64,000 nucleotides of DNA from Brevundimonas vesicularis (GTDB taxonomy: Bacteria; Pseudomonadota; Alphaproteobacteria; Caulobacterales; Caulobacteraceae): the NCBI RefSeq assembly GCF_027105095.1, contig NZ_CP114278.1, forward strand, positions 1,736,001-1,800,000, written 5' to 3'. The notes below the pieces were generated by a model. It had not been told where the DNA came from. It was given only the letters and a program-made list of their open reading frames with translations, and searched no databases. Shown piece by piece: positions 14,611 to 24,668 of the stretch (position 1 is its first letter; every line of letters starts with the position of its first letter). The position numbers and the translations under genes were made by a program.

Positions 14611-14668
14611 TGGCGGAAGCGGTGGGATTCGAACCCACGGACGGCTCTCACCGTCGCTGGTTTTCAAG
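14611..14668 (-). other. 3' half of the split resident tRNA-Ser(UGA); left attachment junction of the island
   Basis: Read on the minus strand, 14668 to 14611 gives the anticodon loop CTTGAAA, the 3' anticodon strand ACCAG, variable arm, T arm (GTGGGTTCGAATCCCAC), acceptor strand CGCTTCC, discriminator G and an encoded CCA. No 5' half precedes it; to the right the sequence is unrelated. Its acceptor and anticodon strands pair with the 5' half at 24630-24668, and together they make a 90-nt tRNA. The shared 7-bp core (plus strand 14662-14668) is the likely crossover. The rest of the 14467-14817 gap holds no gene I can support. Confidence 0.85.
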
Positions 14669-14817
14669 TTTGTCGGTAACGGCCTTTAGGCCACTTGTTC
14701 TCTCTTTATATCGCTTTATTCCTTCATAAAATCAGTTGCTTGGCTCCGACGATAAGCCTTACGCCACTTGGTATCGCTTTACCCAAGTTGCTTATGACCC
14801 GCTTTTCAGGAGCCAAC

Positions 14818-16101
14818 ATGACCAGCCAGCCCAACCGCGCCAAGCTGACGAAGGGATATGTCGATCGGATCAAACCCGGTCGGAAGGACGAGTTTCACTG
14901 GGATGCCGACACCAAGGGCTTTGGTGTCCGCGTGACCCCAACGGGCAAGCTCACATTCATCGTGCAGGGAAGGGTGGATGGCGTTGAATCTGCCATCCGC
15001 ATCACCATCGGAGCCTACGGTGTCTTCACGGTCGATCAGGCCCGTGACGTGGCCCGAGAGCACTTGCGGTCGATGCGCATGGGCGTTGATCCGCGCGCGG
15101 CGCGAAAGGCGGACGAAGCCGCGAAGGTGACGCTTCAACAGGTCTGCGATGCCTATGTTTCTCGACCGGGAAAGCTAAAGGCTAGCAGCCGCGAAGCGAT
15201 TGAACGCCATATCCGGACGACGTTCGAGAAGTGGGCGGGTCAACCTATCGCCAGCATCACCGAGGAGATGTGCAAGAAGCGATACCGCGAGGTTTTGACG
15301 AAGGGCCTGCGTGGTGATCGCAAACAAGGTTCGCCGGGCCAAGCCAATCAAGCATTTTCCGTTCTCGGTGCTTTGCTCGCCTACGCCGGTCGCCAGTATC
15401 GGCGTGTCGATGGAGCGCCGCTATGCGACCGCAGCCCCGTCGATGCGCTCAAGGACGACCGGGTTCGGCTAAAACCTCGCACGAGTCGAATCCTTGACCA
15501 CAAGGTTGGCCCGGTCTGGTTGGCTCTGCGTGAGTGGCGGACGACAGCGTACAACCGCGACACCATGTCGAGCATCGACCTAGTTCGCTTTTTGCTGCTC
15601 ACGGGGCTTCGTATTTCTGAGGCGTCGTCTCTTCAATGGCCCCAGGTGAACTTGGAGGACGGCTACTTCCATCTGCCAAACCCGAAAAACTCAAACCCGG
15701 TTTCGATGCCGCTTTCGACACAGGCCGTTGAACTGCTCAAAGCGCGCCCGCGCGTCGCTGACAATCAGCATGTCTTCCCGTCATGGGCTGGCAGCCTGAG
15801 AGACCCGCGCGACATGATGAAGAAGGTGTCGGCGGTCGCTGGGAGCCATCTGACGCCTCACGACATGAGGCGCACCTATACGAATATCGCCCTGCGATCC
15901 TGCCGCATCGAAAAGTTCAGAACTGACCTGCTGACGAACCACATCACGCGCGACGTGACCGCAGAGCACTATTTCGACACGACCAACCTCCAGTGGCTTC
16001 AACCGGAGGCGCAGAAAATCGGCGATTGGCTGGACCAGCAGGCGGCGATTGCCGAGAGCGCGAACGTGGCGCGGTTGGAACCGCGCGCGCAGGCCGCGTA
16101 G
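14818..16101 (+). CDS. Tyrosine-type site-specific integrase (P4/DUF4102-like)
   Basis: A 427-residue phage-type integrase. I chose ATG 14818, preceded by AGGAG, over in-frame upstream starts. The N-terminal arm-binding domain includes FHWDADTKGFGVRVTPTGK. The catalytic set is complete: Arg265 (TGLRISEAS), His348 and Arg351 (HDMRR), His375 (TNHITRDVT) and nucleophile Tyr385 (EHYFDTT). It lies about 150 bp inside the left attachment core, as usual for elements that integrate at tRNA genes. It is expected to catalyse integration at the anticodon loop of tRNA-Ser(UGA). Confidence 0.93.
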   Translation: MTSQPNRAKLTKGYVDRIKPGRKDEFHWDADTKGFGVRVTPTGKLTFIVQGRVDGVESAIRITIGAYGVFTVDQARDVAREHLRSMRMGVDPRAARKADEAAKVTLQQVCDAYVSRPGKLKASSREAIERHIRTTFEKWAGQPIASITEEMCKKRYREVLTKGLRGDRKQGSPGQANQAFSVLGALLAYAGRQYRRVDGAPLCDRSPVDALKDDRVRLKPRTSRILDHKVGPVWLALREWRTTAYNRDTMSSIDLVRFLLLTGLRISEASSLQWPQVNLEDGYFHLPNPKNSNPVSMPLSTQAVELLKARPRVADNQHVFPSWAGSLRDPRDMMKKVSAVAGSHLTPHDMRRTYTNIALRSCRIEKFRTDLLTNHITRDVTAEHYFDTTNLQWLQPEAQKIGDWLDQQAAIAESANVARLEPRAQAA

Positions 16102-16437
16102 GCCGTCCGTACAGGCTCGACAGGTACTATAGGGGTAAGTGCCTCGGGCAGCCGCGTTTCCCGGCTGTAGCCCAACCGCACAGCGCGTTTTTGCCCCGGA
16201 CACCAGCATTTTAGTGTTTGCGTGACCTAGCTGGCCTGCCGTAAAAAGATAGCAATCCCTGTTTTACGGGATCGGGGCCGCACAGGGCGCCAATCAAAAA
16301 AGTATCTGTGACGAGAGCTGGCGAAGCAAGGGTAGCCAATCCCCCAGGGCGTCAGACACTGCCAGGGCAGCATTCGGCTGGGTCTGGTGCTGGTGACCAC
16401 AGCGCAAGTCGAACGCTTGTACTGAAAGTCACCAAGC
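16102..16437. other. 336-bp gap between integrase and AlpA-like gene; possible control region
   Basis: No credible gene was seen. It contains an 8-bp inverted repeat, CCGTAAAA at 16239-16246 and TTTTACGG at 16262-16269, which could be a terminator-like hairpin for the integrase gene or an operator. A small CTGCC-AG-GGCAG dyad lies near 16359-16370. This is where the promoter for the regulator and rep genes should be, but no convincing -35/-10 was found. Confidence 0.4.
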
Positions 16438-16716
16438 ATGGCTGTCACCGTAAATCTGGATGATTTGCTGACGACGAAAGAGGCGGCATCCGTCCTCGGC
16501 GTCAAACCTAACACTTTAGAAATCTGGCGACACAAGGGGAGGGGGCCGCCGTTCATTCGGCTCGGCGATGGGCCGTGTGCGCCGATCCGCTATTTCCGCA
16601 TCGAACTATCGAAGTGGTTAGCGTCCCATTCCTACGCTCACACGAGCGCCTATAGCCCCTCTGCGCAGACCTCCGACAAATTCAATAAATGCCGGTCGAC
16701 GGGGGCATCATGTTGA
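16438..16716 (+). CDS. AlpA/excisionase-like helix-turn-helix protein
   Basis: A 92-residue protein with an N-terminal MerR-like winged helix: LLTTKEAASVLGVKPNTLEIWRHKG is cut here as TTKEAASVLGV then TLEIWRHKGRGPPFIRLG, residues about 12-44. It then reads IRYFRIELSKWL. This is the AlpA/Xis pattern. Such proteins act as recombination directionality factors or transcriptional switches in P4-like satellites. It lies between the integrase and the RepA-type gene, consistent with that role. The C-terminal 30 residues are Ser/Thr-rich and unremarkable. Confidence 0.8.
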   Translation: MAVTVNLDDLLTTKEAASVLGVKPNTLEIWRHKGRGPPFIRLGDGPCAPIRYFRIELSKWLASHSYAHTSAYSPSAQTSDKFNKCRSTGASC

Positions 16717-23456: not shown

Positions 23457-24318
23457 AAATCTCCCTCCACTTATTACGCGCTGTGTCGGGGCGGTTGTTG
23501 GACTCATAGTCGATTGCGCTGATCGCCAATGAGTACGCACTAGCTGCGGGCGTCTGAAAATTGCCCTTCTTCCACACAGATGAGCCGCTACCCGGCGCGC
23601 GCCAATAGTCTTTGGACCTGTCGATCCCAGCAAGATAAAGCAGGAAATCTCGGACGAGCCAGTCATGATACATATATGACTTGTCTCGGTGTGCCCATGT
23701 CTCGATGAACTGATACGCTAGCGTATCGATAAGCATTCCGCTTAAAGGGACCGCATGTTTGTCGCGCCAGATGCGCGCCATTCGCCCGATAGCCTTTAGG
23801 TTGCCGTTAGTCCCAGTATTGCGGGCGGCGAAGGCGTCCATCTCGGCTCGCGGATTGCATACCTTCCAACTACCTCCACCATTTGAGTCAGCGAACGTGA
23901 AGCTGCTGCCATCTTGGTTCAAGAACACCGGTAGAATTTCGAAGCGGATACCATCCGTGAAGTTCAGTGCCACGACCTGACCGTCACCGCCGATGTACGA
24001 GTTGGCGTAGGTGCGCAAAATTGAGCTTCGCACAGCCTGTAACAGTGCCGACTGACCGTTACCGGCATGTCCATTGTATTGATGATAGACGCTGGCGGGG
24101 AGCGTAAACGCGACATCGAGGTCGCTGACGCCGTTCGCCGCCGTGTCGCGGCCGTATGATCCCACATACAGGCTGTGCGCAGTTTCCGACTCCGTGTTCC
24201 AGAAGTCCTTGTTGAGTTGCTTGGTGATGCGCCTGTAGCGAGCGGAGATGCTGCCGACAGTGTCTGTCGGGATGAGGTAGTTGGCGCGGAAGGCGCGGAA
24301 GTTGTCAGCGACGCTCAT
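23437..24318 (-). CDS. CD-NTase (SMODS-type cyclic oligonucleotide synthase) of CBASS
   Basis: A 293-residue nucleotidyltransferase. The cGAS/DncV-like active site reads YVGSYGRDTA then NGVSDLDVAF: Gly53-Ser54, Asp66 and Asp68. The third acidic position is Glu127 in RFEILPVF. On phage infection such enzymes make cyclic di- or trinucleotides that activate a partner effector, here the SLATT protein encoded immediately downstream. ATG 24318 lies 76 bp downstream of the island tRNA on the same strand. No Cap2/Cap3 or HORMA/TRIP13 genes are present, so this looks like a minimal type I CBASS. The product nucleotide cannot be predicted. Confidence 0.87.
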   Translation of the reverse strand: MSVADNFRAFRANYLIPTDTVGSISARYRRITKQLNKDFWNTESETAHSLYVGSYGRDTAANGVSDLDVAFTLPASVYHQYNGHAGNGQSALLQAVRSSILRTYANSYIGGDGQVVALNFTDGIRFEILPVFLNQDGSSFTFADSNGGGSWKVCNPRAEMDAFAARNTGTNGNLKAIGRMARIWRDKHAVPLSGMLIDTLAYQFIETWAHRDKSYMYHDWLVRDFLLYLAGIDRSKDYWRAPGSGSSVWKKGNFQTPAASAYSLAISAIDYESNNRPDTARNKWREIFGSTYP

Positions 24319-24394
24319 CGGTCAAGCTTGGCACAGGATCGACGAAATTGCCAGAACGAACGAGGAACTTTTGGCGTGCGTCTGACCGAGCCGC

Positions 24395-24484
24395 TGGCGG
24401 AAGAGGTGGGATTCGAACCCACGGACGGCTTGCGCCGTCGCCGGTTTTCAAGACCGGTTCCTTAAACCACTCGGACACTCTTCC
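24395..24484 (-). tRNA. tRNA-Ser(UGA), complete copy carried by the island
   Basis: Read on the minus strand it is 90 nt with an encoded CCA. The acceptor stem GGAAGAG/CTCTTCC pairs perfectly. The anticodon stem is CCGGT/ACCGG with loop CTTGAAA (anticodon UGA). There is a long variable arm typical of tRNA-Ser (GACGGC/GCCGTC) and a T arm GTGGG/CCCAC. It differs from the reconstructed resident tRNA in the acceptor, anticodon-stem and variable-arm positions. It lies 145 bp downstream of the orphaned 5' half in the same direction and 76 bp upstream of the CD-NTase gene. Confidence 0.95.
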
Positions 24485-24629
24485 ATACCAACTCATCGCT
24501 GTCGCTTACGGTGGGCTTATGGGTGACTTGTCGTCATCCTAAGCCTCGCCCAAGACCGCCAGCTAAGCGGCTGTAACCACACTCCTATTCAGCCGCCCGT
24601 CCCGGTTCAAGGTCCAAGCCCGCATAAGC

Positions 24630-24668
24630 TTTCAAGACCAGTGCCTTAAACCACTCGGCCACACTTCC
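24630..24668 (-). other. 5' half of the split resident tRNA-Ser(UGA); right attachment junction
   Basis: Read on the minus strand from 24668: acceptor strand GGAAGTG, D arm (GGCCGAGTGG...), 5' anticodon strand CTGGT and loop CTTGAAA, after which homology stops. Its acceptor strand pairs with CGCTTCC and its anticodon strand with ACCAG of the 3' half at 14611-14661. It does not fit the island tRNA, where acceptor position 6 would be T-T. Together the halves total 90 nt. The native tRNA promoter should lie just right of 24668 and could still fire leftwards into the island. Confidence 0.85.

Follow-up and report, generated by a model that had tools for sequence, protein, structure and literature searches.

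Features of the locus

The window analysed here is a 64,000-nucleotide stretch of Brevundimonas vesicularis (contig NZ_CP114278.1), which holds a ~10-kb island that very probably splits the single tRNA-Ser(UGA) gene of its host by integration and supplies a whole foreign replacement. The GC content of the island is 59.2% compared with 67–68% in the flanks, and the features that define its ends are:

14611..14668, minus strand: stranded 3' half of the resident tRNA-Ser(UGA), starting with the core CTTGAAA (14662–14668) and 100% identical to the joined tRNA over 58 nt
24395..24484, minus strand: complete element-borne tRNA-Ser(UGA), called by ARAGORN and the only UGA copy found
24630..24668, minus strand: 5' half left over from the resident tRNA-Ser(UGA), with the core CTTGAAA (24630–24636) as its last bases and 100% identity over 39 nt

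The split resident gene and its empty site

The only sequence common to the two tRNA-Ser halves, read directly on the minus strand, is the 7-mer CTTGAAA, and the joined halves form a 90-nt tRNA which ARAGORN calls Ser(tga) and which is identical to the island tRNA at 81 of 90 positions. A search of the own genome with the joined sequence gave two perfect matches, one of 58 nt (E 7e-24) and one of 39 nt (E 8e-14), and on these figures the match is no chance event. The joined halves are also identical at 90/90 positions to the intact tRNA near rlpA in four loci of the same genus (L050, L051, L052, and L055) and to tRNAs lying ~1.2 kb from rlpA in L057, L058, and L076. The first-pass annotation, which had described a resident gene split at its anticodon loop and a complete but different tRNA-Ser(UGA) at 24395–24484 and had predicted an intact resident gene in island-free relatives, was exact in its coordinates and is borne out on all three points. 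Neither end of the island holds a rebuilt resident tRNA, in line with the earlier statement that the gene is not restored by a 3' fragment. In the rlpA loci of relatives, ARAGORN found one Ser(UGA) tRNA in 27 of 29 and two in none, and the tandem pair of intact tRNAs that had been named as the observation to refute the split did not appear; no Ser(UGA) tRNA was found in the rlpA loci L066 and L077, the former having a 5' piece near a contig end. In five same-genus loci (L057, L058, L068, L074, and L076), the intact tRNA-Ser(UGA) stands ~1.1–1.2 kb from rlpA and not ~0.1 kb, the neighbourhood being rearranged.

An empty site with both flanks was seen in two of the six relatives fetched. The intact tRNA of G008 has rlpA on one side and kdpE/kdpD from ~3.1 kb on the other, and in G019 the far-left flank of the window resumes ~1.1 kb behind the intact tRNA; a matching left flank was not seen within ~20 kb in G028, G020, G011, and G033. 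The 7-bp core had also been called unusually short, which does not hold, as tyrosine integrases typically cut 6–8 bp apart and the cores of kindred phages measure 8–17 bp (PMC10865867). The oddity is that homology ends at the core, not the length of the core itself.

The island copy as the only tRNA-Ser(UGA) gene found

The own genome is a single 3.12-Mb contig in which the serine tRNAs found are CGA, GCU, GGA, and the island UGA. A DNA search with the joined resident tRNA returned both halves and the island tRNA, and its 12 further, weaker matches include the three other serine tRNAs. Neither line of search turned up a Ser(UGA) gene besides the island copy, in agreement with what the first-pass annotation had supposed. 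In standard decoding, the UCA codon needs a tRNA with a UGA anticodon, and UCA occurs five times in 1612 codons of four flanking genes. In 14 other genomes, 44 matched loci were typed with ARAGORN (the count covers matches given a locus, some weak or partial matches being left out): UGA was called in five, all of them element tRNAs, other tRNAs in 38, and none in L259, which has only a short stretch resembling a tRNA 3' end.

Replacing elements in other genomes

The replacing design was found in nine elements, that of the window and eight whose integrases are 55–84% identical to its own, from Magnetospirillum, sphingomonads, and a Hydrogenophaga metagenome-assembled genome (MAG). In the common layout, the 3' half adjoins the integrase gene, the 5' half lies at the far end, and a different complete tRNA-Ser(UGA) stands just inside the 5' half. 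Elements of this layout occur in Magnetospirillum aberrantis (integrase identity 84%), Sphingomonas colocasiae (77%), Sphingobium sp. Leaf26 (71%), and a Sphingomonadaceae MAG (75%), which together with the Hydrogenophaga MAG and L085 make up the six loci of the related-locus search. The Hydrogenophaga element (integrase 56%) has the same layout over ~21.6 kb with a 12-nt core, its halves having been matched by eye; core-to-core size is 8.3–10.4 kb in the seven elements measured.

In the family of S. colocasiae, 13 of 397 genomes had an integrase match at 1e-110, and the replacing design was present beyond the seed genome in G848, G1062, and G910, the others restoring tRNA-Lys or being unassigned to a class. 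The G1062 integrase contains two in-frame stops, and the 3' half of this element was seen by blastn and missed by the exact-core script. Among 131 genomes of the own genus, the only other integrase match at 1e-60 was G711, which was considered as a replacing candidate and rejected as a classical tRNA-Lys(UUU) island that restores its target. No integrase relatives were found in plasmid and phage records (1e-60, 1e-40) or in IMG/VR. The element-type tRNA pattern occurred in 18 IMG/VR stretches (Ser(UGA) by ARAGORN in 17), and none had an upstream 5' half or an integrase of the window type. The closest tRNA in a plasmid record (Sphingomonas parapaucimobilis, 93%) was rejected as an element tRNA, being an ordinary gene near rlpA.

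Relics that retain the element tRNA

A junction pattern, consisting of a severed 5' half running into element DNA and making no use of the element tRNA, was matched in nine of the 397 genomes of the S. colocasiae family and in none with the reversed control. A complete element tRNA lies behind the junction in 9/9 (ARAGORN), and four junctions are accompanied by an integrase relative and a 3' half (G784, G848, G910, and G1062, of which G784 is the seed from the related-locus search). In G836, G854, G794, and G988, tblastn gave no integrase match and no complete 3' half was present in the 33, 10, 37, and 39 kb, respectively, read behind the tRNA, the 10 kb of G854 ending at the contig end; whole-genome searches of the same four did not find a complete 3' half. 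The G1017 junction ends at a contig end, and G843, which has the same layout and is not matched by the exact pattern, also ends early. Behind the element tRNA are ordinary-looking genes in G836 and G854 and other mobile genes in G794, which may have held a different element, while in G988 an OLD-like ATPase gene and IS21-type genes precede a truncated 3' half ~6 kb away.

With no integrase homologue or complete 3' half found and the tRNA intact in these four relics, the element tRNA evidently outlives the element, and it does not protect the whole island. The proposal of the first-pass annotation that the tRNA stabilises the element therefore stands at most for the tRNA end; for the whole island it is doubtful, because precise excision would restore the resident gene and because the relics, in 4/9 of the sphingomonad junctions, keep the tRNA with no integrase homologue or complete 3' half found. 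Retention of the tRNA in the relics is no more than suggestive of a need of integrants for the element tRNA.

Restoring relatives and the integrase tree

Distant integrases (~46–51%) adjoin 3' tRNA fragments that likewise start at the anticodon loop, and the restoring elements have a full tRNA at the far end, 100% identical over a block of 45–47 nt. The targets restored are:

tRNA-Lys(CUU): G912, G816, G926, G1050, and G339
tRNA-Lys(UUU): G711 (same genus, integrase 51–52%)
tRNA-Pro: L085
tRNA-Met: G292

These are read as ordinary restoration, and one integrase family is seen to hold two solutions, restoring or replacing its target tRNA. When 22 integrases were placed on a tree, seven of the replacing elements grouped together in one clade (100/100), and the G910 and Hydrogenophaga elements paired with each other (97/94). 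The replacing or restoring label needs two changes on this tree, with 0/500 shuffles as low, where G711 was entered as unknown and G910b as classical although its 3' fragment is out of view; replacement may still have had a single origin. The class was left unassigned for G999, G972, G916, and G983 on account of the far end. L160 (G999) carries a 53–56% integrase beside an apparent tRNA-Ser(GCU) 3' half (isotype by eye), with the far end past the contig end.

Origin of the element tRNA

A sphingomonad source of the island tRNA is likely, because the same form (GGAAGAGTGTCC...GGAAC) occurs in sphingomonads without a 5' half upstream (L171, L172, L174, L176, and L178). The element tRNA has probably been exchanged within the lineage, because Magnetospirillum and G848, whose integrases are nearest to that of the window on the tree, carry another form. 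In the six elements compared besides G910, the resident and element tRNAs are identical at 71–81 of 90 positions. At least seven different acceptor 5' strands occur among the resident genes that were interrupted, more than a single carried 3' half could match, and replacement may pay for this reason; it would free the element from matching the acceptor stem of its host and help it to move between orders.

The att site, the spacer, and the presumed promoter

The recombination site and its surroundings comprise three further features:

14669..14817, no strand assigned: integrase-side att arm, with one ATAAGC (14790–14795, minus strand) 127 bp from the core
24485..24629, minus strand: spacer from the core to the element tRNA, the predicted P' arm of attP, with GTAAGC (24504–24509) and ATAAGC (24515–24520) 11 bp apart
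24669..24760, minus strand: kept upstream region of the resident tRNA, presumed to be its promoter, TTTGGTTAATG ... CCTGCTATGG

The two blocks of the upstream region also precede the intact tRNA in the seven relatives whose sequence was displayed. The spacer is 145 bp long in the window, 123–148 bp in 14 aligned spacers, and 149 bp in Hydrogenophaga, and in 15/15 cases the element tRNA follows the 5' half at 123–149 bp in the same direction. Two [ACG]TAAGC motifs 11 bp apart were found in 9 of 13 spacers scanned, starting ~37 and ~26 bp before the tRNA, and a similar pair stands ~138 and ~127 bp from the core on the integrase side of five of seven elements (the window has a single motif there and G910 none). 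When long spacers are compared with short ones, the core-to-central-block distance and the block-to-tRNA distance each shift by ~11 bp, near one helical turn; in this comparison, the L082 block was unmatched and the G1017 match lay elsewhere. We read the spacer with its conserved motifs as the predicted P' arm of attP.

In 12 of 14 spacers (for example, L083:8631–8754), the arm-like motifs are immediately preceded on the 5' side by a short inverted repeat, with stem letters that vary and a signal that is weak singly against shuffles. RNA folding of 10 spacers gave z −3.7 for the window, clearly below shuffles, and −1.1 to 0.5 for the others; a conserved leader structure is not claimed, as only the window's spacer folds below shuffles.

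Proposed mechanism and alternative explanations

The sequence itself shows a split resident gene with its empty site, one replacement copy, recurrence across genera, and relics that keep only the tRNA end, and from these we infer the action of the integrase at the core and a dependence of viability on the island tRNA. The tyrosine integrase would recombine attP with the anticodon loop of the one tRNA-Ser(UGA) gene of the host, crossing over within CTTGAAA. Since the 3' tRNA sequence in attP stops at the core, the resident gene would be destroyed, and the host would survive on the complete foreign tRNA-Ser(UGA) of the island, placed behind the P' arm and in line with the 5' half. Transcription of the island tRNA would then come from the presumed promoter of the host tRNA, which is still present upstream of the 5' half. 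Capture of this promoter is proposed because the element tRNA lies directly beside the recombination site, with the stranded 5' half and the host upstream region ahead of it, and is given about even odds. A wider account, in which one integrase family switched from restoring to replacing and crossed orders, the tRNA being silent on the excised circle and switched on by the host tRNA promoter, and in which decay leaves a permanent foreign tRNA-Ser(UGA), is tentative and somewhat likelier to fail in part than to hold as a whole.

Three observations weigh against replacement by a foreign tRNA in this manner. The resident and element tRNAs of G910 are identical at 88/90 positions, so no foreign form is present there; the four relics show that the element itself can be lost; and a sigma-70 scan gave no site in 24300–24800, in the presumed host promoter and the spacer alike, and so cannot decide the promoter.

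The same replacement could also operate with an island tRNA that has its own promoter in the spacer, its place beside att being a trace of capture from a former host, and this possibility falls only slightly short of an even chance. The tRNA of mycobacteriophage Fionnbharth has its own strong promoter (PMC10865867), and some spacers end in a stretch similar to the leader of a native tRNA-Ser from sphingomonads (L172 vs. L081). However, the 14 spacers show no obvious conserved pair of promoter-like elements, their conserved blocks have the look of integrase arm sites, and the constant direction and distance of the element tRNA also count against this reading, although common descent could explain them. 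It is very improbable that the island is of the ordinary tRNA-gene kind, with a restored tRNA that simply drifted or was duplicated: distant relatives of the window integrase do restore their targets, but the 5' half runs directly into non-tRNA element DNA, a junction which contradicts restoration, and the complete tRNA, 145 bp further inward, differs in its acceptor stem and D-stem, a layout repeated in eight other elements. A split tRNA joined in trans is less credible still, since the halves, though both undecayed in the own genome, lie 10 kb apart between recombination-site sequences, and relics exist without a complete 3' half.

Island genes and cargo

Between the att sites, the following genes were predicted:

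14818..16101, plus strand: tyrosine integrase, 427 aa from ATG (Arm-DNA-bind_3 and Phage_integrase; phrog_1)
16438..16716, plus strand: AlpA-like excisionase or regulator (HTH_17; phrog_66), with a homologue in 12/15 related loci
16852..18156, plus strand: AAA_25 ATPase, primase/helicase-like (Pfam, PHROGs)
18377..19093, minus strand: TIR-domain protein, likely defence cargo (TIR_2 1.4e-11; weak ThsB/Thoeris-type matches)
19330..20154, plus strand: orf274, a backbone gene without a family, with a homologue in 12/15 related loci
20173..20658, plus strand: DUF5681 protein, a backbone gene, with a homologue in 11/15 related loci
20655..21026, plus strand: orf123, no function assigned, with a homologue in 5/15 related loci
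22480..22950, plus strand: orf156, no function assigned, with a homologue in L080, L081, and L082
22890..23423, minus strand: SLATT_4 two-transmembrane (2TM) protein, an effector of the cyclic oligonucleotide-based anti-phage signalling system (CBASS) type (Pfam 1e-65; PADLOC Effector 3.9e-76)
23437..24318, minus strand: SMODS nucleotidyltransferase, a CBASS-type cyclase (Pfam 5.9e-45; PADLOC Cyclase 2e-129; under the NCBIfam curated cut-off)

The genes stand in this order, with a poorly resolved stretch between orf123 and orf156, where two overlapping reading frames of 223 and 113 aa without families occupy 21411–22195 on the minus strand. The order integrase, AlpA, and primase presumably resembles that of phage satellites, and no phage structural family was found among 10 island proteins with Pfam or eight with PHROGs. 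Homologues of the AlpA-like, orf274, and DUF5681 genes occur in replacing and restoring elements alike among the 15 related loci, and these genes look like the family backbone, with the defence genes as exchangeable cargo. The elements of G910 and Hydrogenophaga match the island proteins at the integrase only. The G910 element (L158 8261–12251) encodes a reverse transcriptase, an N6-methylase, and an AAA_25 protein, a cargo that differs from that of the window.

The cyclase and effector required for CBASS are both present by their predicted function, the cyclase lying below the cut-off given above, and this pair is island cargo with no part in the tRNA mechanism. The TIR protein shares the island with the CBASS-like pair and may be a second defence gene.

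Relation to known systems and significance

Dependence of integration on an element-borne tRNA is known as tRNA-dependent lysogeny in actinobacteriophages (Guerrero-Bustamante and Hatfull, 2024, mBio; PMC10865867). The likeness extends to an arm-binding tyrosine integrase, an attB in a tRNA gene, a core too short to rebuild it, and a supplied tRNA of the same isotype. In the window, the integrase domains, the two halves, and the empty site place a tyrosine integrase of predicted catalysis at an attB inside a tRNA gene, the 7-bp core is too short to rebuild that tRNA, and the disrupted host gene was the sole copy. The actinobacterial systems are temperate phages with cores of 8–17 bp that use tRNA-Lys, -Ile2, or -Leu, Fionnbharth having a tRNA with its own promoter, whereas the island family uses tRNA-Ser, has its tRNA always beside att, and leaves relics. 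The island itself does not qualify as a temperate phage, as it has no recognised structural family and its integrase was not found in phage records at 1e-40. In the case of the prophages of Sinorhizobium meliloti AK21 and RU11/001, the resident tRNA-Leu(UAG) is inactivated and its place is taken by a tRNA-Leu(UAG) of foreign type, with a likeness to the resident of no more than 80.6% (PMC11476347), which is also an alphaproteobacterial replacement but involves intact prophages and another tRNA. Prophages that restore their target have likewise been reported (PMC12429752). The Islander report records anticodon-centred crossover as one site class of tRNA islands (PMC4383910); these classical islands also use a tyrosine integrase but restore the target with an attP-borne fragment, and no such restoration by the element is seen here. 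No non-phage island family replacing a tRNA was recognised in the open literature searched, most subscription journals lying outside it.

The arrangement is real and recurrent and, by its anatomy, works like tRNA-dependent lysogeny. The principle is known from phages, and what is new is its occurrence in islands, mostly of 8–10 kb, without recognised phage structural genes, together with the relics. With this, tRNA replacement is no longer confined to phages but includes small islands whose cargo is likely to serve defence. Restoration and replacement stand side by side in one integrase family, which opens their evolutionary relation, called unclear in the discussion of PMC10865867, to study. 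Programs that detect islands by their restored target gene might overlook islands of this kind or place them wrongly. For the host, replacement of this kind is a route by which a foreign gene takes the place of its sole gene for a given tRNA.

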